This document shows positions 49,220 through 60,670 of a DNA stretch of 64,000 nt, one piece after another. The notes under the pieces were generated by a model. It worked only from the letters and a program-made list of their open reading frames with translations, did no database searches and was not told where the DNA came from. Numbering within the stretch: the first letter of the stretch is position 1; every line of letters begins with the position of its first letter. The stretch spans positions 2,728,001 through 2,792,000 of the forward strand of contig NZ_CP015243.1 in the NCBI RefSeq assembly GCF_001648175.1. The letters run 5' to 3'. A program made the translations under genes and the position numbers. This DNA comes from Halotalea alkalilenta. GTDB lineage: Bacteria > Pseudomonadota > Gammaproteobacteria > Pseudomonadales > Halomonadaceae.

Positions 49220-50428
49220 TCAGATCAGTGCATCGACGGCGGCGGCGATGCGCGCACAGCCCTCATCGAGCACCTGCTGGGAAGAGGCGATCGACATGCG
49301 GAAATACGGCGACAAGCCGTAAGCGGTGCCAGCGACCACGGCCACGCCGGCATTTTCCAACAGGTACATGACCACATCGGTGTCATCGGCGAGGAGCTTT
49401 CCGGCCGGGGTACGACGCCCCAGCAGATCAGCGCAGTCGACGTAGAGATAGAAAGCACCGCTCGGAGCAGCGCAGCTCAAGCCACTGATCGCATTGATCG
49501 ACTCAAGCGTGCGATCACGGCGCTGCCTGTACACCTCGCGGCTTTCGCTAACGAAGCTCTGGTCACCCTCGAGCGCCGCGACCGCCGCAGCCTGGCTCAC
49601 CGAGCAGGTATTGCCCGAGGATTGCGACTGCAGCGTATTGAAGGCGGCGACGAGATCCGCCGAAGCCGCGGCGTACCCGATCCGCCAGCCGGTCATCGCG
49701 TAGGTCTTGGACACCCCATTGATGAGCACCGTCCGGTCTCTAAAGCCCGGCTCGATATTGAGGATGTGCGGATTATCGCTATCGTCGTAGCGGATATGCT
49801 CATAGATATCATCCGTCATCAGCATTACCTGCGGATGTTCGAGCAGTAAGTCGGCAAGTGCACGGTACTCATCCGCCGTGTAGCTCGCGCCGGTGGGATT
49901 GCTCGGTGAATTGAGCATCAGCCAACGCGTGCATGGCGTAATGGCCGAGCGCAGCCGCTCGACGGTGAGCTTGAAACCATCGCTTTCAGGGCAAGGCACT
50001 GTCACCGGCCGTCCGTCGCAGGCAAGCACCATGTCCGGGTAGGAGACCCAGTAAGGCGCGGGAATGATGACCTCGTCGCCAGGCTCCAGCGTGGCCGCGA
50101 GAACCGTGTAGATGGCGCTCTTGGCCCCGCTGGTAACGATGATCTCGTCGAGCCCATAGCTCAAACCATTCTCACGGACGAGCTTGGCGGCAATGGCCTG
50201 GCGCAGCTCCACCGTCCCGCTGTTGTTGGTGTAGCGTGTTTCACCCCGCTGAATGGCTTCCCAGGCCGCCTGTCGGATGTGCGCCGGAGTATCGAAATCA
50301 GGCTCGCCCACCACCAGGTTGACGATGGAGTGTCCTTGCCGGCGCAGCTCGTTGGCGCGGTCGGCGGCGGCACTGCTCGGCGATGGCTTGATGCGTTGCA
50401 CTCGGGCTGCGATGCGCGACGAATTCAC
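49220..50428 (-). CDS. Class I/II pyridoxal-phosphate aminotransferase
   Basis: This 402-residue fold-type I aminotransferase of the aspartate aminotransferase family has NLVVGEPDFDTP near 37-48, TRYTNNSGTVELRQAIA, the NSPSNPTG segment (about 173-180), PLP Lys241 in INGVSKTYAMTGWRIGY and the substrate-carboxylate Arg near FRMSIA at the C-terminal end. Its promoter carries the same palindrome as the carrier/carboxylase and SDR operons, so it probably belongs to the same LysR regulon and may transaminate the amino acid released by that pathway. Confidence 0.88.
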   Translation of the reverse strand: MNSSRIAARVQRIKPSPSSAAADRANELRRQGHSIVNLVVGEPDFDTPAHIRQAAWEAIQRGETRYTNNSGTVELRQAIAAKLVRENGLSYGLDEIIVTSGAKSAIYTVLAATLEPGDEVIIPAPYWVSYPDMVLACDGRPVTVPCPESDGFKLTVERLRSAITPCTRWLMLNSPSNPTGASYTADEYRALADLLLEHPQVMLMTDDIYEHIRYDDSDNPHILNIEPGFRDRTVLINGVSKTYAMTGWRIGYAAASADLVAAFNTLQSQSSGNTCSVSQAAAVAALEGDQSFVSESREVYRQRRDRTLESINAISGLSCAAPSGAFYLYVDCADLLGRRTPAGKLLADDTDVVMYLLENAGVAVVAGTAYGLSPYFRMSIASSQQVLDEGCARIAAAVDALI

Positions 50429-50728: not shown

Positions 50729-51655
50729 ATGAACCTGAAGCGCTTGAAATACTTCGTGAAAATCGTCGATATCGGCAGTCTCACCCAGGCTGCGGACGTC
50801 CTTCATATCGCCCAGCCCGCACTGAGCCAGCAGCTCGCGACACTTGAAGGCGAACTCAAGCAACAGCTCTTGATCCGCACTAAGCGTGGCGTCACACCGA
50901 CCGATGCAGGCAAGATCCTCTACGCCCACGCACAGCTGATCCTTCGCCAGTGTGAGCAGGCGCAGAGCGACGTCCAGGCCTCGAGCAAGGCGCTATCGGG
51001 AAAGGTATCGGTCGGTCTCGCCCCAGGCACTGCGGCATCCGCGCTGTCTCTGCCGCTGCTGCGAGCGGTGCGAGAACAACATCCCGGTATCGTGCTCTAT
51101 CTCAACGAGAATTTCGGCACCACGCTGAGCGAGCTGATCATGAACGGGCGAATGGACATGGCCGTGCTCTATGGTGACAAGGTCATCCATGGGCTCAGCT
51201 TCCAGCCGCTGTTCAAAGAGGAGCTCTACCTGGTAAGCCCCTCGTCGAGATCGCTGCCGCAAGAAGACATCGTGCTGGCGGAAGTCGCGGAATGGGATTT
51301 GATGCTGCCACGCAAGTACAACGTAATCCGCAAGCTGGTGGATGAAGCGTTCCTGCGCATCGGCATGGTGCCGCGGGTGGTCGCGGAAGTGGAGTCCGCC
51401 ACGACCCTGACCGCTGCCATCGACGACGACCTCGGTGTCACCATCCTGCCCGGCTCCGCTGCCCGCATCCTCGCTGCATCGACGTCGGCACGCCTGTGTC
51501 GCATCGTTTCGCCGGTGATCGAGGCCCCGCTGGCGCTGTGCCTTTCCGACCACTTGCCGCTGTCGATTCCCGCCCAAGCGGTGAAGAAAATCCTGCTCGG
51601 GCTGGTCAACGACATGATGCCGGACGATCTGCCAAAGCTCAGAACCGAGGCATAA
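50729..51655 (+). CDS. LysR-family transcriptional regulator
   Basis: This 308-residue protein has the LysR winged helix at residues 1-60 (MNLKRLKYFVKIVDIGSLTQAADVLHIAQPALSQQLATLEGEL) and a type 2 periplasmic-binding-like effector domain (VSVGLAPGTAASALSLPLLRAV; VEVESATTLTAAIDDDLGVTILP). It resembles the Nac/Cbl-like group. Its stop codon overlaps the ATAAG palindrome that precedes the next operon. It probably activates that operon plus the aminotransferase and SDR operons. Confidence 0.9.
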   Translation: MNLKRLKYFVKIVDIGSLTQAADVLHIAQPALSQQLATLEGELKQQLLIRTKRGVTPTDAGKILYAHAQLILRQCEQAQSDVQASSKALSGKVSVGLAPGTAASALSLPLLRAVREQHPGIVLYLNENFGTTLSELIMNGRMDMAVLYGDKVIHGLSFQPLFKEELYLVSPSSRSLPQEDIVLAEVAEWDLMLPRKYNVIRKLVDEAFLRIGMVPRVVAEVESATTLTAAIDDDLGVTILPGSAARILAASTSARLCRIVSPVIEAPLALCLSDHLPLSIPAQAVKKILLGLVNDMMPDDLPKLRTEA

Positions 51656-51717
51656 GACCGCCTTATCCCACCAGCACCAAACCCTCTTAGCCTAGCCAGG
51701 AGCGGCTCGATACATTG
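51652..51717 (+). promoter_or_regulatory. LysR-regulated promoter of the carrier/carboxylase-pxp operon (site A)
   Basis: ATAAG-ACCGC-CTTAT (51652-51666, perfect inverted repeat, T-N11-A), 19 nt, CTTAGC (51686-51691), 16 nt, CGATACATTG (51708-51717) containing a -10-like GATACA. The palindrome centre lies about 60-65 bp before the expected transcript start, the classic LysR recognition-site position, and the middle box is where an activation site would be. The first five bases overlap the LysR stop codon. Confidence 0.7.
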
Positions 51718-51777: not shown

Positions 51778-52212
51778 ATGGACCAGCAACGAATAAAAGC
51801 CTTGATGGATCTGTTGGCGCATTCGGATCTCACCGAATTGACCATCAGCGAGGGCGATTGCACATTGAAACTGGTGAGGAGCGCAGGCCCCTTGCTCACC
51901 GCCGATTCAGCCCTTCCAGTGCCACGCACGACATCCACTGCCTTTGCTGGTCCCCCTCCCGTCGACGATATCGCCCCCGCTGCGGAAATATGCTCGCCGC
52001 TCTACGGTGTGTTCCACTTGACCCCCGCGCCGGGTGAGCCGCCCTTCACGACCCAGGGCGCGAGCGTCGTCGCGGGGCAAACGCTCTGCGTGATCGAAGC
52101 GATGAAGATGTTCCACCCGCTCAAGACCGAGCGCGCGGGTATCGTCGGTGCGATTCTCGCCGAACCCGATCAAGAGGTCGAAGCTGGCCAACCGCTCTTC
52201 TATATCGACTGA
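51778..52212 (+). CDS. Biotin carboxyl carrier protein (AccB-like) of a lactam/urea-type carboxylase
   Basis: This 144-residue AccB-type protein has an N-terminal helical segment (IKALMDLLAHSDLTELTISEG), a Pro/Ala linker and a C-terminal lipoyl/biotinyl domain with the intact EAMKM biotinylation motif (Lys110). It starts an operon with a biotin carboxylase and 5-oxoprolinase-like subunits. It therefore probably carries carboxybiotin for carboxylation of a cyclic amide or urea-like substrate, not for fatty acid synthesis. A housekeeping accB would normally be next to accC alone. Confidence 0.87.
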   Translation: MDQQRIKALMDLLAHSDLTELTISEGDCTLKLVRSAGPLLTADSALPVPRTTSTAFAGPPPVDDIAPAAEICSPLYGVFHLTPAPGEPPFTTQGASVVAGQTLCVIEAMKMFHPLKTERAGIVGAILAEPDQEVEAGQPLFYID

Positions 52213-52245
52213 GTCACCGCCCCACCGCCATCATCGAGTGCCCAC

Positions 52246-53610
52246 ATGTTCGACAAGGTATTGATCGCCAACCGTGGAGAGATCGCGCTGCGTATCCTGC
52301 GCGCCTGCCACAGCCTGGGGTTGCGCACGGTCGTGGTATTTTCCGAGGCGGACCGAGACACCGACTATGTACGGCAGGCGGATCAAGCACTGTGCATCGG
52401 CCCGGCGGCGTCAGCCGCAAGCTACATGAACCAATCGGCGCTACTGTTCGCCGCCGAAGTCAGTGGCGCACAAGCCATCCATCCCGGCTACGGCTTTCTT
52501 TCGGAAAACGCCGCATTCGCCGAACGCGTCGAACGGGCCGGAATGACCTTCATCGGCCCGAGTGCCGACTGCATCCGCACCATGGGTGACAAGATCGCCG
52601 CCAGGCAGGCGATGAAGGCTAGCCGAGTCCCTTGCGTACCGGGTTCGGCAGGCGCGCTTCCGAGCGATCCCGCTGCAGTCGAAGCCATCGCCCAAAGCAT
52701 CGGCTACCCGGTGATCGTCAAGGCGGCCGGCGGCGGCGGTGGGCGGGGCATGCGAGTCGTGAACGCAAAAAGCGAGCTGCTGGAGGCGATCAGCGTCACC
52801 CGAGAAGAGGCACGGCATGCCTTTGGCAATTCAGAGCTCTACCTGGAGAAATTCCTCGGCCAGCCGCGCCATGTCGAAATCCAGATGCTCTGTGACAATC
52901 ACGGTACGGCACTATGGCTGGGAAGCCGCGACTGCTCGATGCAGCGGCGTCACCAGAAGATGCTGGAGGAGTCCCCCGCGCCGGGTATCGATCCCGCCCT
53001 GGTCGAGCGTGTCGGCCTGCGCTGCGCAGAGGCCTGCCGTCGGATCGGCTATCGCGGCGTCGGCACCTTCGAATTCCTCTTCGAGAACGGTGAGTTCTAC
53101 TTCATAGAGATGAATACCCGCTTGCAGGTCGAGCATCCGGTCACCGAGATGGTCACCGGTATCGACATCGTGCAGCAACAGCTACGCGTCGCCTTGGGCG
53201 AGCGCCTGACGCTGACCCAGCAGGAAATCCGCAGCCAGGGACATGCGCTGGAGTGCCGAATCAATGCCGAGAATCCCGACACCTTCACCCCGACGCCCGG
53301 GCAAGTGACCCGCTGGGAAGTCGCCGGGGGCTTTGGCGTAAGGGTGGATTCCCATGTCACCACAGGCTATCGCGTCCCTCCCTACTATGACTCGATGATC
53401 GCCAAGCTGATCACCCACGGCGCCACCCGCGAAGAAGCCTTCGCCCGTATGCGTCTGGCGCTTGCTGAAATGCGAATCGAGGGCATTGCCACGAACATCC
53501 CGCTCCATCGGAAGATCCTCGATGATCCCGGGTTTCGTCACGGCGGTGTCGACATCCATCATCTGGAGCGCTGGCTCGAAGAAAACCGCTCGACACGAGG
53601 CGCAGCATGA
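52246..53610 (+). CDS. Biotin carboxylase subunit (AccC-like)
   Basis: This 454-residue ATP-grasp enzyme carboxylates biotin on the carrier protein using ATP and bicarbonate. It has [20 protein letters not shown] at the start, the Gly-rich nucleotide loop [12 protein letters not shown] (159-170) and [14 protein letters not shown] (288-301) with the catalytic Arg and Glu. Its ATGA stop/start overlap with PxpB places it firmly in the oxoprolinase-like operon. Length is normal for AccC. Confidence 0.9.
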
Positions 53611-54278
53611 GTTCGAACCAAGGCGAACGGCCGGTCATCAGCCTGCTGGGCACCACCGCCCTGCTGTTCGAGGCGCCCGGCGATCTGGAGCTGACCACCC
53701 AACAGCGCATCTGGGCGTTGGCGATCGAAGCGGGTAAATGGCCCGAAGCCGGGGAAGCGGTTCCCGGCATGAACAACATGATGCTGACCTTTTCCACCCC
53801 GCCACGCGATTTGTCGGCGCTGCGCGTACGTCTGCTGGCAGCCTGGGACCACTGTTCGGCGCTACCGCTCGAGGGCAGGATCATCGATCTTCCAGTCATT
53901 TACGGCGGCGACGATTTCGGTCCGCACATGGCGGACGTCGTTGCGCATACGGGGCTTTCGATAGATGACATCGTCGAGCTGCACAGCGCCCCGCTCTACC
54001 CGGTCTATGCCCTGGGCAGCCACCCTGGTTTCTGCTACCTCGGCGGTATGGACCCACGTATCGCCACGCCCCGGCGCAAGGTACCGATCACCAACCTGCC
54101 CGGCGGCGCCGTATCCATCGGCGGGGTGCAGACCGGCGTATCGGCCTCGGCCGGACCCAGCGGCTGGAACACCATCGGGCGCACCACGATGAGCTTCTTC
54201 GACCTCGCCCAGGACCCACCGATACTTTGCGCGCCGGGTGATCTCGTCCGCTTTCGTGTTGAGAGGGTCATCCGATGA
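53607..54278 (+). CDS. pxpB: 5-oxoprolinase subunit PxpB-like (KipI family)
   Basis: This 223-residue protein of the KipI/PxpB fold, related to the first half of the urea carboxylase carboxyltransferase domain, contains [35 protein letters not shown] and [20 protein letters not shown]. It forms a complex with PxpC. In true 5-oxoprolinase the PxpBC pair phosphorylates or activates the lactam. The adjacent carboxylase genes suggest a carboxyl-transfer variant here. It overlaps both neighbours by 4 nt. Confidence 0.85.
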
Positions 54279-55243
54279 TAGAAATCATCTCGGCCACCGC
54301 CTTGAGCACCGTGCAGGACCATGGCCGCAGCGGCAGCCTGCGCTATGGCGTTGGCACCGCTGGAGCGATGGATCGACTGGCGCTGGCGGCCGGCAACCTG
54401 ATGCTCGGCAACGATGAAGACGCAGCGTGCCTCGAGATCCCCGTGTTTCCTTTTCAGGCGCGCTTTCTCGAGGATTGCGACTTCGCCCTGACCGGCGCCG
54501 ATTGCACGGCGAACCTGGATGGCCGCGCACTCTCTCCCTGGTGGGCGAGTCGTGCCCGGGCGGGCCAGACGCTCAGCCTCGCACTGCCGAAGTCGGGCAG
54601 TCGCGCTTATCTGGCCCTTGGCGGTGGTATCGATGTCCCCATGGTGCTGGGCTCCCGCAGCACTCAGCTGCGTGGCGCCTTCGGCGGCCTCGACGGTCGT
54701 GCATTGCGCCAAACGGACCGCCTGCCAGCGGTCCAGGCGATCGCGAATCGAGCGCTCGATTTCGGTATCGAACCGCCCTCGCTGGCATTACCGCGGATGA
54801 TCGACGGCATGGTCGCCCTACGGGTGATTCCGGCCTCGGAATATGCGGCGTTCAGCGCGCAATCACAGGCCGCGTTCTGGGCCAGCGCCTGGAAAGTCAC
54901 CCCTCAGAGCGATCGCTACGGCTTCCGCCTGGCCGGCGACCCATTGGTGCCGATGCAACCGATCGAAACACGCTCGCATGGCATCGTCCCAGGCGTGATC
55001 CAGGTTCCCCACGGCGGGCAACCCATCATTCAGATGCGTGATGCGCAGCCCAGCGGCGGCTATCCGAAATTCGGCAGCGTCATCGAGGCGGACCTCTGGC
55101 GCCTCGGCCAGACCCCTATCGGTAGCCGGGTTCGTTTCATCGAAACCAGCTATGAAGAAGCCCTCGATGCGCTGGCCGACAACCGGCGTTATCTAGATGA
55201 AGTGCAGCGCCTGGTTGGGCTGCGGGGTCTTGAACATGCCTGA
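54275..55243 (+). CDS. pxpC: 5-oxoprolinase subunit PxpC-like (KipA/AHS2 family)
   Basis: This 322-residue protein of the AHS2/KipA family has TVQDHGRSGSLRYGVGTAGAMDRLA at the start, YLALGGGIDVPMVLGSRST and late TSGYRVPP-like segments replaced by PGVIQVPHGGQPIIQMRD. It corresponds to the second half of the urea carboxylase carboxyltransferase domain and pairs with PxpB. Together with the upstream carrier and carboxylase it completes the parts list of a split urea-carboxylase-like enzyme. Confidence 0.87.
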   Translation: MIEIISATALSTVQDHGRSGSLRYGVGTAGAMDRLALAAGNLMLGNDEDAACLEIPVFPFQARFLEDCDFALTGADCTANLDGRALSPWWASRARAGQTLSLALPKSGSRAYLALGGGIDVPMVLGSRSTQLRGAFGGLDGRALRQTDRLPAVQAIANRALDFGIEPPSLALPRMIDGMVALRVIPASEYAAFSAQSQAAFWASAWKVTPQSDRYGFRLAGDPLVPMQPIETRSHGIVPGVIQVPHGGQPIIQMRDAQPSGGYPKFGSVIEADLWRLGQTPIGSRVRFIETSYEEALDALADNRRYLDEVQRLVGLRGLEHA

Positions 55244-55259
55244 CCTTGGATCGGAGACC

Positions 55260-55700
55260 ATGGATATCCGTAACGTGCAGCAACTGATGATCTGGATGCG
55301 GGAAGCCGACCTGCTCCACCTCGAGCTCGAGCGTCCCGGCGGCAGCCTCCTGCTACGCAGATCGCCGCGGACCGCGGCAAGCCCGGCCGCTACCAGGTTC
55401 GAGACCGCCACATCCCCCGCGGCAACACCGGCGAACTCAGGTGGTGAGCACCTGGGTGGAGAGATAGTACGCGCCGACACGGTCGGCCAATTCCTCATCC
55501 AGCATCCGCTGCGTGAAACCCCATTGGTACGCCAGGGGGACAGGGTCGATGCTGGCGATCTGCTGGGGCTGCTGCGCATCGGTTCGCTGTATCTACCCGT
55601 TCGTGCTCACGTCGCAGGGCGGGTCAGTGAACCGTTGACGCCGCCTGGCGGCCTAGTCGGCTACGGAGCGCCACTCTTTGCTCTCGACAATGCTGATTGA
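55260..55700 (+). CDS. Biotin-less carrier-like protein (degenerate AccB paralogue)
   Basis: This 146-residue protein has the AccB layout: an N-terminal helix (MDIRNVQQLMIWMREADLLHLELE), an Ala/Thr/Pro-rich linker and a C-terminal lipoyl-like domain. Aligned to the first carrier gene, the EAMKM stretch is replaced by RIGSL, so the biotin Lys is Ser109 here. Flanking framework residues (VRQGDRVDAGDLLGLL; VAGRVSEPLTPPGG; YGAPLFAL) are kept. It cannot carry biotin in the normal way and may be structural, a decoy or a regulatory subunit. It starts 17 nt after pxpC, with GGAG just upstream. Confidence 0.72.
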   Translation: MDIRNVQQLMIWMREADLLHLELERPGGSLLLRRSPRTAASPAATRFETATSPAATPANSGGEHLGGEIVRADTVGQFLIQHPLRETPLVRQGDRVDAGDLLGLLRIGSLYLPVRAHVAGRVSEPLTPPGGLVGYGAPLFALDNAD

Positions 55701-55714
55701 ACAGGGATTTACAT

Positions 55715-56482
55715 ATGCAAATAGATTTGAATGCCGATCTAGGTGAAGGCTTCGGTGCTTATCGCATGGGTGAGGATGAAGCGCTGATCGGGATCATCTC
55801 TTCCGCCAACGTCGCCTGCGGCTTCCACGCCGGCGATCCGTTGATCATGAACAATACCGCCCACGCCACCAAGGCGGCCGGTGTCGATCTCGGCGCCCAT
55901 GTGGGATTTCCCGACCTGCTGGGCTTCGGCCGAAGGCAAATGCAGGTGGATCCGAAGGAGCTGGCAAGCTATGTGGTCTACCAGCTCGGCGCCCTGGCCG
56001 GGATGGCGGCGGTCGCAGGGCACAGGCTCACTCACATGAGCTTCCACGGCGCACTGGGCAACATGGCGGCCGCCGACGAGACGCTGGCCGAGCCGCTGGT
56101 CGCGGCTGTGGCGGCATTCGATCGGGATATTATCATCAGCTCTTCATCCAGCCAGGCGATCGAAAGCGCCGCCGCCCGACATGGACTACGAGTCGCGACG
56201 ACGTTCCTCGCCGATCGCGCCTATGACGTCAACGGCTTGCTGGTACCACGCAGGATGCCGAACTCAGTGATCACCGACCATGATCAAGTCATGCTGCGGC
56301 TGCGCCAACTGCTCGAAGACGGCAGTGTCACCAGCTATTCGGGCGAGCGCATCCCGATGCGGACCTGCTCGATCCTGCTGCATGGAGATACTCCCGGCGC
56401 AGCGGGAATGGCCCGCGACATTCGCAGTGAAATCGAACGTGGCGGCGGCGAGATTGTGCCGATATCTCATTTGCTGAACTGA
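55715..56482 (+). CDS. pxpA: 5-oxoprolinase subunit PxpA-like (LamB/YcsF family)
   Basis: This 255-residue TIM-barrel protein of the LamB/YcsF family has IDLNADLGEGFGAYRMG, SANVACGFHAGDP and GAHVGFPDLLGFGRR as usual. The region corresponding to the common VKPHGALYN reads MSFHGALGN (108-116), losing the Lys, Pro and Tyr, and the usual ADRAY segment is present (FLADRAYDVNGLLVPRR). PxpA hydrolyses or channels the activated lactam. The ATG at 55715 is preceded by an AGGGA; an ATG at 55697 would overlap the previous stop. The sequence divergence suggests a substrate other than 5-oxoproline. Confidence 0.82.
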   Translation: MQIDLNADLGEGFGAYRMGEDEALIGIISSANVACGFHAGDPLIMNNTAHATKAAGVDLGAHVGFPDLLGFGRRQMQVDPKELASYVVYQLGALAGMAAVAGHRLTHMSFHGALGNMAAADETLAEPLVAAVAAFDRDIIISSSSSQAIESAAARHGLRVATTFLADRAYDVNGLLVPRRMPNSVITDHDQVMLRLRQLLEDGSVTSYSGERIPMRTCSILLHGDTPGAAGMARDIRSEIERGGGEIVPISHLLN

Positions 56483-56502: not shown

Positions 56503-56568
56503 ATAAGAGACCCTTATCTCCACACAGCCAATCCGTCTTAGCTCTGATAATTCCGAGACGATACATTG
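56503..56568 (+). promoter_or_regulatory. LysR-regulated promoter of the SDR-ABC operon (site B)
   Basis: ATAAG-AGACC-CTTAT (56503-56517, perfect inverted repeat, T-N11-A), 19 nt, CTTAGC (56537-56542), 16 nt, CGATACATTG (56559-56568). The palindrome arms, the middle box and the 10-bp -10 region are identical to those at 51652-51717, although the spacer bases differ. This separates conserved signal from chance. Confidence 0.7.
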
Positions 56569-56664: not shown

Positions 56665-57411
56665 ATGCCTTTTTCCGACTATAAGACCGCCCTGGTCACC
56701 GGCGCTTCCTCCGGCATCGGCGCCGCCATCGTCGAGCGACTTACCCTTGAAGGCATCGAGGTACACGCCGTGGCGCGCAATGCTGTGAAGCTCGCCACGC
56801 TGGCCGAAAAGACAGGCTGCATCACGCATACGCTCGATGTCGGTGACCTCGAGGGCATCACCCGCCTGGCGCAGGCACAGCCTTTCGACATCCTGGTCAA
56901 CAATGCAGGCGTCGATCGCCCTGGCTCGATTCTCAACGCCGACGCGCAGGGCATCGACGCATTGGTCGACACGAATTTGCGCGCGGTTCTGCATCTGTGC
57001 CGCCTCGTGGTCCCAGGCATGGTCGAGCGCGATCGCGGGCACGTCATCAACGTAAGCTCCATCGCCGCGGCCTACAACTTCAACGGCAACTCCACCTATC
57101 ACGCCACCAAGGCCGCCGTGAGCATGCTGTCGCGCCAGCTGCGCATCGATGTGTTCGGCAAGCGCGTCAGGGTGACCGAAATCTGCCCAGGCCGGGTGGC
57201 GACGGATATCTTCGCCCACGTCCACGGTGATCCCGAAAACAGCTGGAAGAAATACATCGAAGGCTTCGAACTTCCGCAGGCCTCGGATATCGCCGACGCG
57301 ATTGCTTTCGCGATCGCAGCGCCGATTTCGATGAACGTCGGCCATATAGAAATCACCCCCACCCTGCAAGTACCAGGCGGGTTGCAGACTACTCGTCCTC
57401 AGGACGTTTGA
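56665..57411 (+). CDS. Short-chain dehydrogenase/reductase (SDR)
   Basis: This 248-residue classical SDR has the NAD(P) motif TGASSGIG (12-19), NNAG (79-82), the catalytic Ser in NVSS (about 132) and Tyr145/Lys149 in STYHATK, plus PGRV(A)T in the C-terminal part. It resembles the YdfG-like 3-hydroxy acid dehydrogenases. The ATG at 56665 has an AGGA 8 nt upstream; an ATG at 56656 is possible. It is the first gene after promoter site B and is followed by the ABC importer. Confidence 0.87.
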   Translation: MPFSDYKTALVTGASSGIGAAIVERLTLEGIEVHAVARNAVKLATLAEKTGCITHTLDVGDLEGITRLAQAQPFDILVNNAGVDRPGSILNADAQGIDALVDTNLRAVLHLCRLVVPGMVERDRGHVINVSSIAAAYNFNGNSTYHATKAAVSMLSRQLRIDVFGKRVRVTEICPGRVATDIFAHVHGDPENSWKKYIEGFELPQASDIADAIAFAIAAPISMNVGHIEITPTLQVPGGLQTTRPQDV

Positions 57412-57533: not shown

Positions 57534-58238
57534 ATGAACCAATTTTTTCTGGATCTGGGCCAGATTCTGCAAGGTGAATACGCCGACCTGATCATTCAGG
57601 GCATAAAGACCACGCTCCAGCTGGCGCTATTTTCCTGGATGATCGCCATGGGCCTGGCACTGGCTCTAGTGACCATCCGACTGACCAGCGTCCGAACGGC
57701 CACTCTCCTGGTCGCAGGCTATGTCTCCTACCACCGCAACGTACCCACACTGGTTCAGCTGATGCTCTGGTATTTCGGCATCGCCTCGATATTGCCGGAA
57801 AGCATGCAACTTTGGCTGGCCAATTTCAGTACTGAGTTTCTCTTCGCGGTCATCGCTCTCGGCCTTTGCCAGGCGGCGTATTTTTCCGAGGATATCCGCA
57901 GTGGCCTGCGCGCCATTCCCAGAGGACAAAGCGAAGCAGCTCGTGCTCTCGGAATGGGCTACATACGTTCCATGCGCTACGTCATTCTTCCCCAGGGGAT
58001 ACGCAACTCCCTCCCCTCGCTGCTCAATCACACCGTACTGCTGTTCAAGAACACCAGCCTGGCAATGACGATCGGTGTAGTGGAACTGACCTATGCAACC
58101 CGGGAGGTGGAAAACTACACCTTCCTTACCTTTCAATCCTATTTCATCGCTACAGCGGCCTACCTGGCATTTTCGCTGCTACTCATGGCACTCGGTGCAA
58201 TGCTGGCCAGGCGATTCGAAAAGGTCAACGCAAGGTAA
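57534..58238 (+). CDS. Polar amino acid ABC transporter permease
   Basis: This 234-residue HisM/GltK-type permease has about five helices and the EAA loop (SEAARALGMGYIRSMRYVILP) near residues 133-153. It begins 122 bp after the SDR gene and ends 6 nt before the next permease. It forms part of the importer in this operon, for which a cyclic amide or amino acid is the likely load. Confidence 0.87.
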   Translation: MNQFFLDLGQILQGEYADLIIQGIKTTLQLALFSWMIAMGLALALVTIRLTSVRTATLLVAGYVSYHRNVPTLVQLMLWYFGIASILPESMQLWLANFSTEFLFAVIALGLCQAAYFSEDIRSGLRAIPRGQSEAARALGMGYIRSMRYVILPQGIRNSLPSLLNHTVLLFKNTSLAMTIGVVELTYATREVENYTFLTFQSYFIATAAYLAFSLLLMALGAMLARRFEKVNAR

Positions 58239-58244
58239 TCCACC

Positions 58245-58970
58245 ATGTTTGATATATTTCATATCCTGCGGGACAACTGGGAACTCTTTCTCCTGGGACA
58301 ATATCCGTATGGTCCGCTGGGTGGCCTGGTCAACACGTTGATTCTTGCTTCTCTGGCGCTGGTCATCGCATTTCCGCTCAGTCTTCTGCTCACCATGGCT
58401 CGGATTTCACCTTTCCGGATACTGCGCTACCCAGCCACGGTCTGGGTGTACGTATTGCGCGGAGTGCCCCTGATCATGGTGATCTTCTGGACCTATTTTC
58501 TGGTACCCACGTTGATCGGACGCAACGTCAGCGGCTTCACTACCATGCTGTGCACGCTGGTCGTCTACCAGAGCGCGTATCTGTGCGAAATAGTGCGAGG
58601 CGGTATTCAGGCACTGCCCAGTGGCCAGTACGAAGCCTCCAGAGCACTTGGACTTGGATACTTTCGCACCACCGCGTGGGTCATCCTGCCTCAGGCACTG
58701 TACAACTCTTTGCCGAGCTTGATCAGCCAATTCATCTCCATCATCAAAGAGACCACCCTGGGCTATGTCATCAACGTGCAGGAAATGACCTTTGCGGCGA
58801 ACCAGGTCAATAACCAGCTGCTGACCAAACCCTTCCAGGTGTTCTTCATCCTGGCGATCACCTACTACATCCTGTGCTATGGCCTCACCCAGCTGGCCCA
58901 GTGGTTCGAGCATAGGATAGATAAAAAACGTCAAGGCTCAGTCGATATTGCCAGCGTCGAGCAACCTTAA
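58245..58970 (+). CDS. Polar amino acid ABC transporter permease
   Basis: This 241-residue permease has the EAA loop (YEASRALGLGYFRTTAWVILP) near residues 127-147 and five or six hydrophobic segments. It pairs with the preceding permease. It is 37 nt from the ATPase gene. Confidence 0.87.
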   Translation: MFDIFHILRDNWELFLLGQYPYGPLGGLVNTLILASLALVIAFPLSLLLTMARISPFRILRYPATVWVYVLRGVPLIMVIFWTYFLVPTLIGRNVSGFTTMLCTLVVYQSAYLCEIVRGGIQALPSGQYEASRALGLGYFRTTAWVILPQALYNSLPSLISQFISIIKETTLGYVINVQEMTFAANQVNNQLLTKPFQVFFILAITYYILCYGLTQLAQWFEHRIDKKRQGSVDIASVEQP

Positions 58971-59007
58971 CTGGCGCGACAGCCACTGAATAATCAAGGT
59001 ATCCCCG

Positions 59008-59745
59008 ATGAAGACCATGATCATCTTTTCCAATGTCAACAAATGGTACGGATCCTATCAGGCGCTCACCAATATCAATGCCGAGATTAGCCAGGGAGAG
59101 GTCATCGTAGTGTGTGGGCCCTCTGGATCTGGCAAGTCCACTCTGATTCGAACGGTCAACAGGCTCGAGGAGATCCAGAGCGGCCAAATCCTCTATGAAG
59201 GACACGATGTCCATGGCACCGATGCGAATCTCAACCGTCTTCGTAGCCGGATTGGCTTCGTATTCCAAAGCTTCAATCTGTTCCCCCACTTGTCGGTGCT
59301 AGACAATGTGATCCTGTCGCCAACCAAGGTAAAGGGTATGAAGGCATCGGCTGCGAAAAAACTCGCCCTGGCGCTGCTGGAACGCGTCGGTATGGCACAC
59401 AAGGCCAACGCTTATCCCGCTCAGCTTTCAGGCGGTCAACAGCAACGAGTCGCCATTGCCCGGGCGCTCGCCATGGAGCCCCCGGTGATGCTGTTCGACG
59501 AGCCCACCAGCGCCCTCGACCCGGAAATGGTGGGTGAAGTACTCAATGTAATGCGGGGATTGGCCAAGGAAGGAATGACCATGATGTGTGTAACACATGA
59601 AATGAACTTCGCACGGGAGGTGGCGGATAAAATCTGGTTCATGGACGCCGGCCAGATTCTCGAAACAGCAGATCCCGTTCAGTTTTTCAATCAGCCCAAG
59701 CATCCACGTGCGAACCGCTTCATCAGCGATCTTCGCGCTCATTGA
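59008..59745 (+). CDS. Polar amino acid ABC transporter ATP-binding protein
   Basis: This 245-residue GlnQ-type ATPase has Walker A GPSGSGKS (37-44), [18 protein letters not shown], signature LSGGQQQR, Walker [13 protein letters not shown] and the switch His in MMCVTHEM. It drives the two permeases. The order permease-permease-ATPase-binding protein differs from the IclR-linked importer at 14780. Confidence 0.92.
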
Positions 59746-59836
59746 CATCAAGGACGTCAAACGAAAGTTCGAATACGGACAACACCAGCAGTGGAAAATC
59801 GCCAGCAATTCAAATTATAACAGAGGATACTCTCCC

Positions 59837-60670
59837 ATGAATTTAAAAGTCATCTTGAGCACACTAGTTCTAAGCTCCCTGGCAATCTCCTCGGCAAAAG
59901 CCGACCAATGGTCGGATATCCAAGCCAGGCAGTCACTCAGCTGTGGGGTCTATTCCGATGTTCCCCCCTTCTCTTCACCCGACCCACAGACTCGCGAACT
60001 GGTCGGCATGGACGTCGATCTCTGTAAAGCATTGGCCGAGCAGTTGGGCGTAGGGCTCGAACTCAAGCCGCTATCGGGAGAGGCGCGCATTCCGGAGCTG
60101 CGAATGGGTCGGGTGGACCTGATCATCGCTAACCTCGCCTATACCAAGACCCGGGCGGAGCAGATCCAGTTCAGTGACCCCTACTACGTTGCCAAGGAGA
60201 TGCTGGTCGTCAAGGCTCCGCTGGCGAACAACTCGTTGGATTTCTTCAAGAACAAGCGCATCAGTGCGACCAAGGGCTCGACTTCCGAACAGTCCATCCG
60301 ACTTGCTGGCGCCAACCCCGTGACCTTCCAGGATACAGGCTCGGCATATCTGGCGGTGCAGCAGAACAAGGTGCTGGGTGTCGTCACCAATGCGATGACC
60401 GCGCAGATGCTGGTAAACCAAGCCAAGGCCAGCGGTGTCGATCTGGGAATCGTCGAGGAGCCGCTGGCGCTCGAGCCGATCGGCGCAGGCCTGCGCAAGG
60501 GCGAAGAGACGCTCCTTGCGCGGGTCAATGAGGCACTGATGAACATGGAAGAGGCCGGCGAAATCGATCGGATTTGGGACAAGTGGCTCGGCCCGGATAC
60601 CGAATACCAAATGGTCCGAGAAGAGAGGGTGCAAAAGCTCAGTGAGCTCGATTTCGAGCCCCTGCCGTAG
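59837..60670 (+). CDS. Amino acid ABC transporter substrate-binding protein (family 3)
   Basis: This 277-residue binding protein has a signal peptide (MNLKVILSTLVLSSLAISS, cut near KADQ) and family 3 motifs: LSCGVYSDVPPFSSPD, GMDVDLCKALAEQLGV, GRVDLIIANLAYTKTRAEQI and a C-terminal IDRIWDKWLG. The ATG at 59837 has AGAGGA upstream. As last gene of the SDR-ABC operon it determines what the importer recognises. Confidence 0.88.
   Translation: MNLKVILSTLVLSSLAISSAKADQWSDIQARQSLSCGVYSDVPPFSSPDPQTRELVGMDVDLCKALAEQLGVGLELKPLSGEARIPELRMGRVDLIIANLAYTKTRAEQIQFSDPYYVAKEMLVVKAPLANNSLDFFKNKRISATKGSTSEQSIRLAGANPVTFQDTGSAYLAVQQNKVLGVVTNAMTAQMLVNQAKASGVDLGIVEEPLALEPIGAGLRKGEETLLARVNEALMNMEEAGEIDRIWDKWLGPDTEYQMVREERVQKLSELDFEPLP

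Follow-up and report, generated by a model that had tools for sequence, protein, structure and literature searches.

A 64,000 nucleotide stretch of the Halotalea alkalilenta genome (G000:C1:2728001-2792000, hereafter the window; the genome is a single contig of 4.39 Mb) carries at positions 51778-56482 a set of six genes, in the order biotin carboxyl carrier protein (BCCP), biotin carboxylase (BC), PxpB, PxpC, a carrier-like protein, and PxpA. BC and the first carrier, designated BCCP1, are dedicated to the Pxp set. The carrier-like protein, designated BCCPx, represents a bacterial family of dead biotin carriers retained under selection. Judged from sequence and gene context, the set probably encodes an enzyme of several subunits dedicated to a cyclic amide that resembles an amino acid, a substrate probably imported by an adjacent ABC transporter. 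The best single reading, to which we give an even chance, is a biotin-dependent N-carboxylation of the cyclic amide followed by ring opening by PxpA.

Open reading frames and family profiles agree on the gene order, as an earlier note made from the DNA alone had described it, and the two 4 nucleotide overlaps that it reported, at the BC/PxpB and PxpB/PxpC junctions, are both real. The remaining gaps within the set are 33, 16, and 14 nucleotides. The six genes are as follows.

51778..52212, + strand: BCCP1, biotin carboxyl carrier with an EAMKM motif (Biotin_lipoyl, 53 bits; TIGR00531, 88.5 bits, under the cut-off of 115.2)
52246..53610, + strand: BC, AccC-type biotin carboxylase (AccC model TIGR00514, 683 bits, cut-off 626.5)
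53607..54278, + strand: PxpB, KipI-type carboxyltransferase half, CT_C_D (192.4 bits; PxpB model TIGR00370, 178.6 bits, cut-off 145.55)
54275..55243, + strand: PxpC, KipA-type carboxyltransferase half, CT_A_B (289.5 bits; NF045499, 322 bits, under the cut-off of 500)
55260..55700, + strand: BCCPx, BCCP-like, biotin lysine absent (Biotin_lipoyl, 18.1 bits, under the cut-off of 22.1; BCCP model TIGR00531, 7e-9, 36.3 bits)
55715..56482, + strand: PxpA, LamB/YcsF-family hydrolase (LamB_YcsF, 292.6 bits; NF003814, 322 bits, cut-off 226)

The start of BCCPx is taken as the ATG at 55260, which has GGAG upstream; the list of open reading frames gives a longer start at 55197.

A biotin carboxylase and carrier inherited with PxpBC

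The window BC aligns to Escherichia coli AccC over residues 1-444 without a gap and keeps the catalytic residues; its active site is intact. The biotin lysine is found in all 74 aligned BCCP1 rows, that of the window included. Comparison of operon order across genomes, as the earlier note had suggested, used the best 80 of 98 matches of one PxpC query against genome contigs, hence near kin, with genes marked by comparison with the window proteins. The genes for a NAC-type LysR regulator, BCCP1, BC, BCCPx, and PxpA all lie on the PxpC strand in 59 of these 80 related loci, an association that exceeds chance, and the NAC-type gene lies upstream of the set in most of them. Four of the 80 (L063, L069, L070, L107) are cut by contig ends, and five are enteric (L102, L109, L110, L113, L117). 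In twelve Bradyrhizobium loci the operon reads BCCP1-BC-PxpB-PxpC-BCCPx, with PxpA in a second, facing PxpBC operon. In this arrangement (L111 and eleven more), where the facing operon reads PxpB-PxpC-PxpA, a single PxpA and a single BC may serve both PxpBC pairs. Frames for BCCPx (L068) or BC (L069, L074, L116) are fragmented in draft genomes, through sequencing error or decay.

In a tree of 51 BC rows, the window-type BCs group together (24 rows, 97/76; without L158, 23 rows, 100/97) next to the gammaproteobacterial housekeeping AccC, with the other BCs of the H. alkalilenta genome (that of a second BC-linked set, L009, and the urea carboxylase-type and PC-type BCs) outside it. Members of this clade occur alongside PxpBC in gamma-, beta-, and alphaproteobacteria. 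BC and BCCP1 are dedicated to the Pxp set, because the housekeeping accBC genes lie elsewhere (C1:2.391 Mb) and the BC kin fall into a single clade that accompanies PxpBC.

A carrier relative without the biotin lysine

The biotin lysine is absent from every one of 79 aligned BCCPx rows, so that BCCPx cannot be biotinylated at the usual place; it is also the most constant extra part of the set. The earlier note had rightly placed a carrier-like protein in the operon and overlooked this loss. The layout of a BCCP is kept, with the TIGR00531 match spanning the length of the protein and the fold predicted, and dN/dS (a plain NG86 estimate that took the first 60 usable pairs of each group and script-chosen start codons) indicates purifying selection. 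BCCPx was found in 74 of the 75 related loci that have BC in the fetched stretch, the exception being L069, which ends 240 bp past PxpC. It is present in every related locus examined whose contig extended far enough, including enterics whose genomes encode no dedicated BC. Three enteric loci (L110, L113, L117) have BCCPx without BC, the BCCPx of the latter two being divergent, while in the genomes of the other two (L102, L109) BCCP1-BC-BCCPx lies directly beyond the fetched flank.

A BCCPx profile matched 318 of 398 genomes of the phylum at 1e-15. Among 30 profile-matched loci that were read, eight (the window included) lack the biotin motif and 22 are ordinary BCCPs. Several gene orders occur around motif-less carriers: BCCP1-BC-BCCPx-PxpB-PxpC-PxpA-aminotransferase (L159-L161), aminotransferase-BCCP1-BC-BCCPx-PxpA with PxpBC nearby (L158), and PxpC-BCCPx-PxpA at a contig end (L162). 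In the enteric L156 and L157, a NAC-BCCPx-SDR-ABC run adjoins PxpB-PxpC-PxpA, and BC is absent. The genomes of L109 and L102 each hold a second system (L170 and L171, respectively) that has BCCPx and PxpA with no BC in the stretch; PxpBC is seen in L170 only. Plasmid records of Burkholderia pyrrocinia, Bradyrhizobium guangxiense, and Paracoccus sp. MA all three carry a BC-bearing set with a motif-less second carrier, divergent in Paracoccus. The BCCPx of L167 scores 65 bits against the BCCPx profile, the same as its BCCP1, and is called BCCPx by its place and its missing lysine. Annotations of BCCPx in three records read acetyl-CoA carboxylase BCCP subunit, biotin/lipoyl-containing protein, and hypothetical protein.

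Two other searches say less. A BCCPx search of plasmid records gave no match at 1e-5 and was too weak, because L165-L167 do carry BCCPx yet gave no match at that threshold. A single-sequence search matched 312 of 369 genomes of the class; these are probably ordinary BCCPs, given bit scores of at most 55 outside the H. alkalilenta genome itself.

Systems without a dedicated biotin carboxylase

The window BC served as query against nine genomes. Four (G750-G753) have a window-type BC (705-802 bits, 68-76% identity) besides AccC. In the other five (G726, G572, G747, G748, G749), the best match, at 618-634 bits and 60-62% identity, is at the level of housekeeping AccC, and other matches fall only in frames of about 1200 residues. 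The six PxpB rows from BC-less systems (L110, L113, L117, L156, L157, L170) have the pocket signature GSHPGYCYLG, or GSAPGFGYLHG with TGPNGWxxIG, and differ from E. coli YbgJ and from two plain PxpB proteins of the H. alkalilenta genome. For the BC-bearing class the comparison used the 12 commonest signatures, covering 75 of 82 rows, in a script-set class that includes one plain set, L163. Biotin may be borrowed or optional for Pxp systems, because the five genomes without a window-type BC keep PxpABC and BCCPx with a matching carboxyltransferase pocket signature.

In two enterics, an open reading frame between the Pxp and BC operons (L168 6412-6933, L169 5994-6617) was read by eye as a gamma-type carbonic anhydrase; this candidate could supply bicarbonate.

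Proposed mechanism and its alternatives

In the mechanism we favor, BC would carboxylate biotin on BCCP1 using ATP and bicarbonate, and BCCP1 would move to the PxpB-PxpC carboxyltransferase, where the carboxyl group would be transferred onto the amide nitrogen. PxpA would open the activated ring, CO2 would leave, and the opened amino acid would be handled by the SDR oxidoreductase and the aspartate-type aminotransferase encoded nearby. BCCPx would be a structural adaptor, tying PxpBC or PxpA to the biotin carboxylase and carrier. In genomes that lack a dedicated BC-BCCP1, it may enlist the housekeeping AccC-AccB, and such borrowing would reconcile the BC-bearing and BC-less sets of facts. The constancy of BCCPx speaks for a partnership with PxpBC or PxpA rather than with BCCP1 alone; this excludes neither N-carboxylation nor the ATP-driven alternative considered below. 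A bolder version makes BCCPx an obligate adaptor through which PxpBC uses a BC, either dedicated or the housekeeping AccC-AccB, so that PxpBC-PxpA systems, some of those now counted as ATP-only PxpABC among them, would be biotin-dependent lactam hydrolases. We regard this version as rather doubtful. If true, it would define a new class of enzymes in which transient amide N-carboxylation takes the place of phosphorylation. An adaptor role for BCCPx would also explain how one biotin carboxylase serves several enzymes.

Several observations weigh against N-carboxylation by the window set. Recombinant PxpA, PxpB, and PxpC alone reportedly give an ATP-dependent 5-oxoprolinase (Niehaus 2017). Five of the nine genomes searched have PxpABC and BCCPx without a window-type BC, and the pocket signature of BC-less PxpB matches that of BC-bearing members of the same subclade. 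In alignment, the position of K1605 of the Kluyveromyces lactis urea carboxylase (KlUC) is Arg in the window PxpB, as in plain PxpB; K1605 is the likely general base, and the K1605A variant has a kcat 0.095 of wild type, according to the available part of PMC5770610. For plant BADC proteins, the likeness of which to BCCPx is treated below, an inhibitor role is also cited (PMC11926652, as available in part). At the K1605 position, L013, L014, L009, and L010 of the H. alkalilenta genome have Lys, whereas the window PxpB, its six aligned window-type relatives, YbgJ, L008, L011, and MSMEG_0436 have Arg. The Arg is not decisive, because MSMEG_0436, which is bound to a biotin carboxylase complex, also has it.

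The principal alternative holds that PxpBC activates the amide directly with ATP before PxpA opens it, that BCCPx is a fixed subunit of PxpABC, and that BC and BCCP1 are optional parts that tune or regulate the enzyme. It would account for a PxpB that exceeds its family cut-off, a nearest solved pair that is E. coli YbgJK, the Arg in place of the urea carboxylase lysine, and BC-less systems that retain BCCPx and the pocket signature. We nevertheless think it somewhat unlikely, given that an intact BC and BCCP1 are kept beside PxpBC across three proteobacterial classes, that BCCPx descends from a biotin carrier, and that PxpC falls far under the 5-oxoprolinase equivalog cut-off (322 vs 500 bits). 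BCCPx might instead have a regulatory role, slowing the carboxylase by competition with BCCP1; a role of this kind was once suggested for plant BADC. The BCCP layout without the lysine and the inhibitor model for BADC would suit such a role, and yet BCCPx is kept in genomes that have no dedicated BC or BCCP1 to damp, and its gene lies inside the operon, often adjoining PxpA. We consider this improbable.

Least probable is that BC and BCCP1 are spare acetyl-CoA carboxylase parts unrelated to PxpABC. BC does pass the AccC equivalog cut-off, while BCCP1 (88.5 bits) and BCCPx (36.3) do not reach the 115.2 bits of the AccB equivalog. Service to acetyl-CoA carboxylase only, which the earlier note had named as one finding that would overturn its proposal, is contradicted by the separate accBC, the separate BC clade, and the occurrence of BC together with PxpBC and BCCPx in 74 of the 80 loci, and on these grounds we rejected it. 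Nor are AccA or AccD partners among the genes identified at 47.5-60.7 kb, the part of the window scanned for them.

The earlier note had interpreted the operon as a urea carboxylase split into separate genes. The gene products match the components of a biotin-dependent carboxylase whose carboxyltransferase is of KipI/KipA type, with BC and BCCP1 intact and inherited with PxpBC and PxpA, and Pfam matches confirm a BC, the carboxyltransferase halves, and a BCCP with its biotin lysine. That much stands. The BC groups with AccC, however, the carriers match AccB-type BCCP, and the lysine is Arg. The single-chain model TIGR02712 (cut-off 1303.85 bits) gives 488 bits for BC, 163 for PxpC, and 24 for BCCP1. 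A simple split urea carboxylase was rejected on the BC phylogeny and the Lys-to-Arg change.

Among open-licence PMC papers we found no explanation of how PxpBC, with its carboxyltransferase fold, activates lactams, and the available parts of PMC11394868, PMC13274462, and PMC11001197 hold nothing that bears on the PxpBC mechanism. The cluster offers a direct test of that mechanism, with a dedicated BC and carrier beside PxpBC and with BC-less sister systems that share the pocket signature.

Related sets in the same genome

The 4.39 Mb genome has seven CT_C_D, six Biotin_carb_C, five LamB_YcsF, and 12 Biotin_lipoyl places. For CT_C_D and LamB_YcsF this is an unusually rich complement, the 14 control genomes having been scored as presence or absence only. 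Two urea carboxylase-type chains lie at 3.49 and 4.17 Mb, the former passing TIGR02712 with 1743 bits. The second BC-linked set, L009, at 1.527 Mb (L009 6483-10760, or G000:C1 about 1.5255-1.5298 Mb), consists of PxpA, a short BCCP, BC, PxpB, and PxpC. Its PxpC is nearer urea carboxylase (TIGR02712, 241 bits) than NF045499 (190 bits). By its PxpC scores and its urea carboxylase-type catalytic Lys, L009 suits the split urea carboxylase idea better than the window set does. Pxp-type sets without a nearby Biotin_carb_C place lie at 1.431, 2.15, and 2.23 Mb. With paralogous BC, urea carboxylase-type, and Pxp sets side by side, this genome supplies its own controls.

Gene neighborhood and clues to the substrate

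Four neighboring features accompany the set.

49220..50428, - strand: aspartate-type aminotransferase, divergent upstream, conserved beside the set (NF004769, 694 bits, cut-off 617)
50729..51655, + strand: LysR-family regulator of NAC type, probable regulator (NAC model NF008410, 495 bits, cut-off 309)
56665..57411, + strand: SDR oxidoreductase, adjoining the set in many related loci (adh_short, 154.6 bits)
57534..60670, + strand: polar amino acid type ABC transporter (two permeases, ATPase, binding protein), conserved beside the set

An RraA-like gene lies near the cluster in 25 of 88 loci (for example L156 1489-2184, L113 2919-3611, and L096 1463-2128). All three annotated plasmid clusters have one, two annotated as RraA family and one as carboxy-hydroxy-oxoadipate aldolase/oxaloacetate decarboxylase. 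The H. alkalilenta genome has its RraA-like places outside the window, at 1.780, 2.812, and 2.937 Mb. Some loci also have a 2-hydroxyacid dehydrogenase nearest to glyoxylate/hydroxypyruvate reductases, under their cut-offs. The RraA-like gene, the aspartate-type aminotransferase and, in some loci, the 2-hydroxyacid dehydrogenase suggest that ring opening yields an amino acid resembling Asp or Glu, perhaps in hydroxylated form. On the B. pyrrocinia record (L165 12502-16389, NZ_CP150851), the cluster is followed by genes for PEP carboxylase and D-glycerate dehydrogenase. To judge by name or source, many bacteria with a window-type set are associated with plants. In Pseudomonas protegens Pf-5, pxpABC mutants are impaired in root attachment, according to the accessible part of PMC13390462.

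A repeated element, CCTTATC..CTTAGC..CGATACATTG, precedes the BCCP1 and SDR genes at window positions 51661-51717 and 56512-56568. It scores 31, against at most 25 in 500 shuffles. Its core was not seen at the corresponding places of related loci, and the element may be local to the H. alkalilenta genome.

Comparison with known systems

The PxpABC 5-oxoprolinase of the E. coli YbgJ/YbgK/YbgL type shares PxpB and PxpA with the window set at the level of the family models (178.6 vs 145.55 bits for TIGR00370; 322 vs 226 for NF003814), while the window PxpC stays under the equivalog cut-off. The window set adds its own BC, BCCP1, and the lysine-less BCCPx, and its pocket type is GSHPGF/YCYLGG where YbgJ has GFQPGFPYLGS and YPLATPGGWQLIG. 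Urea carboxylase, as in K. lactis and in L013 of the same genome, differs in that the window set consists of separate chains, has a BC and carrier of AccC/AccB type and Arg for the catalytic Lys, and includes PxpA and BCCPx. In its available part, a 2011 study (PMC3199775) notes split urea carboxylase-type carboxyltransferase genes and studies none.

Staphylococcus aureus has pxpB, pxpC, pxpA, accB, and accC in one six-gene operon; accBC is thus joined to pxpABC as in the window, and the genes are treated there as those of acetyl-CoA carboxylase and 5-oxoprolinase (PMC11315280, from the text available). Structure 9YX5 (released 2025-11-26) is a Mycobacterium smegmatis long chain acyl-CoA carboxylase complex, containing AccA3, with MSMEG_0435-MSMEG_0436, a pair of PxpC-PxpB type, bound. 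It sets a precedent for the proposed contact between such a pair and a biotin carboxylase complex, and has the same Arg at the urea carboxylase lysine position; it differs from the window set in that its BC-carrier subunit, AccA3, is common to acyl-CoA carboxylases. Neither 9YX5 nor a bacterial lysine-less BCCP turned up as the subject of a paper in a search of open-licence PMC papers, a weak negative.

The closest known analogues of BCCPx are the plant BADC proteins, inactive BCCP paralogs of the plastid acetyl-CoA carboxylase. In the available part of PMC11926652, BADC lacks the biotin motif, stands beside a working BCCP and BC, and is reported to glue BC to BCCP. BCCPx is likewise a BCCP paralog without the biotin lysine. 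The likeness is one of description, and BCCPx, unlike BADC, is bacterial, tied to PxpABC, and kept even where no dedicated BC or BCCP is encoded.

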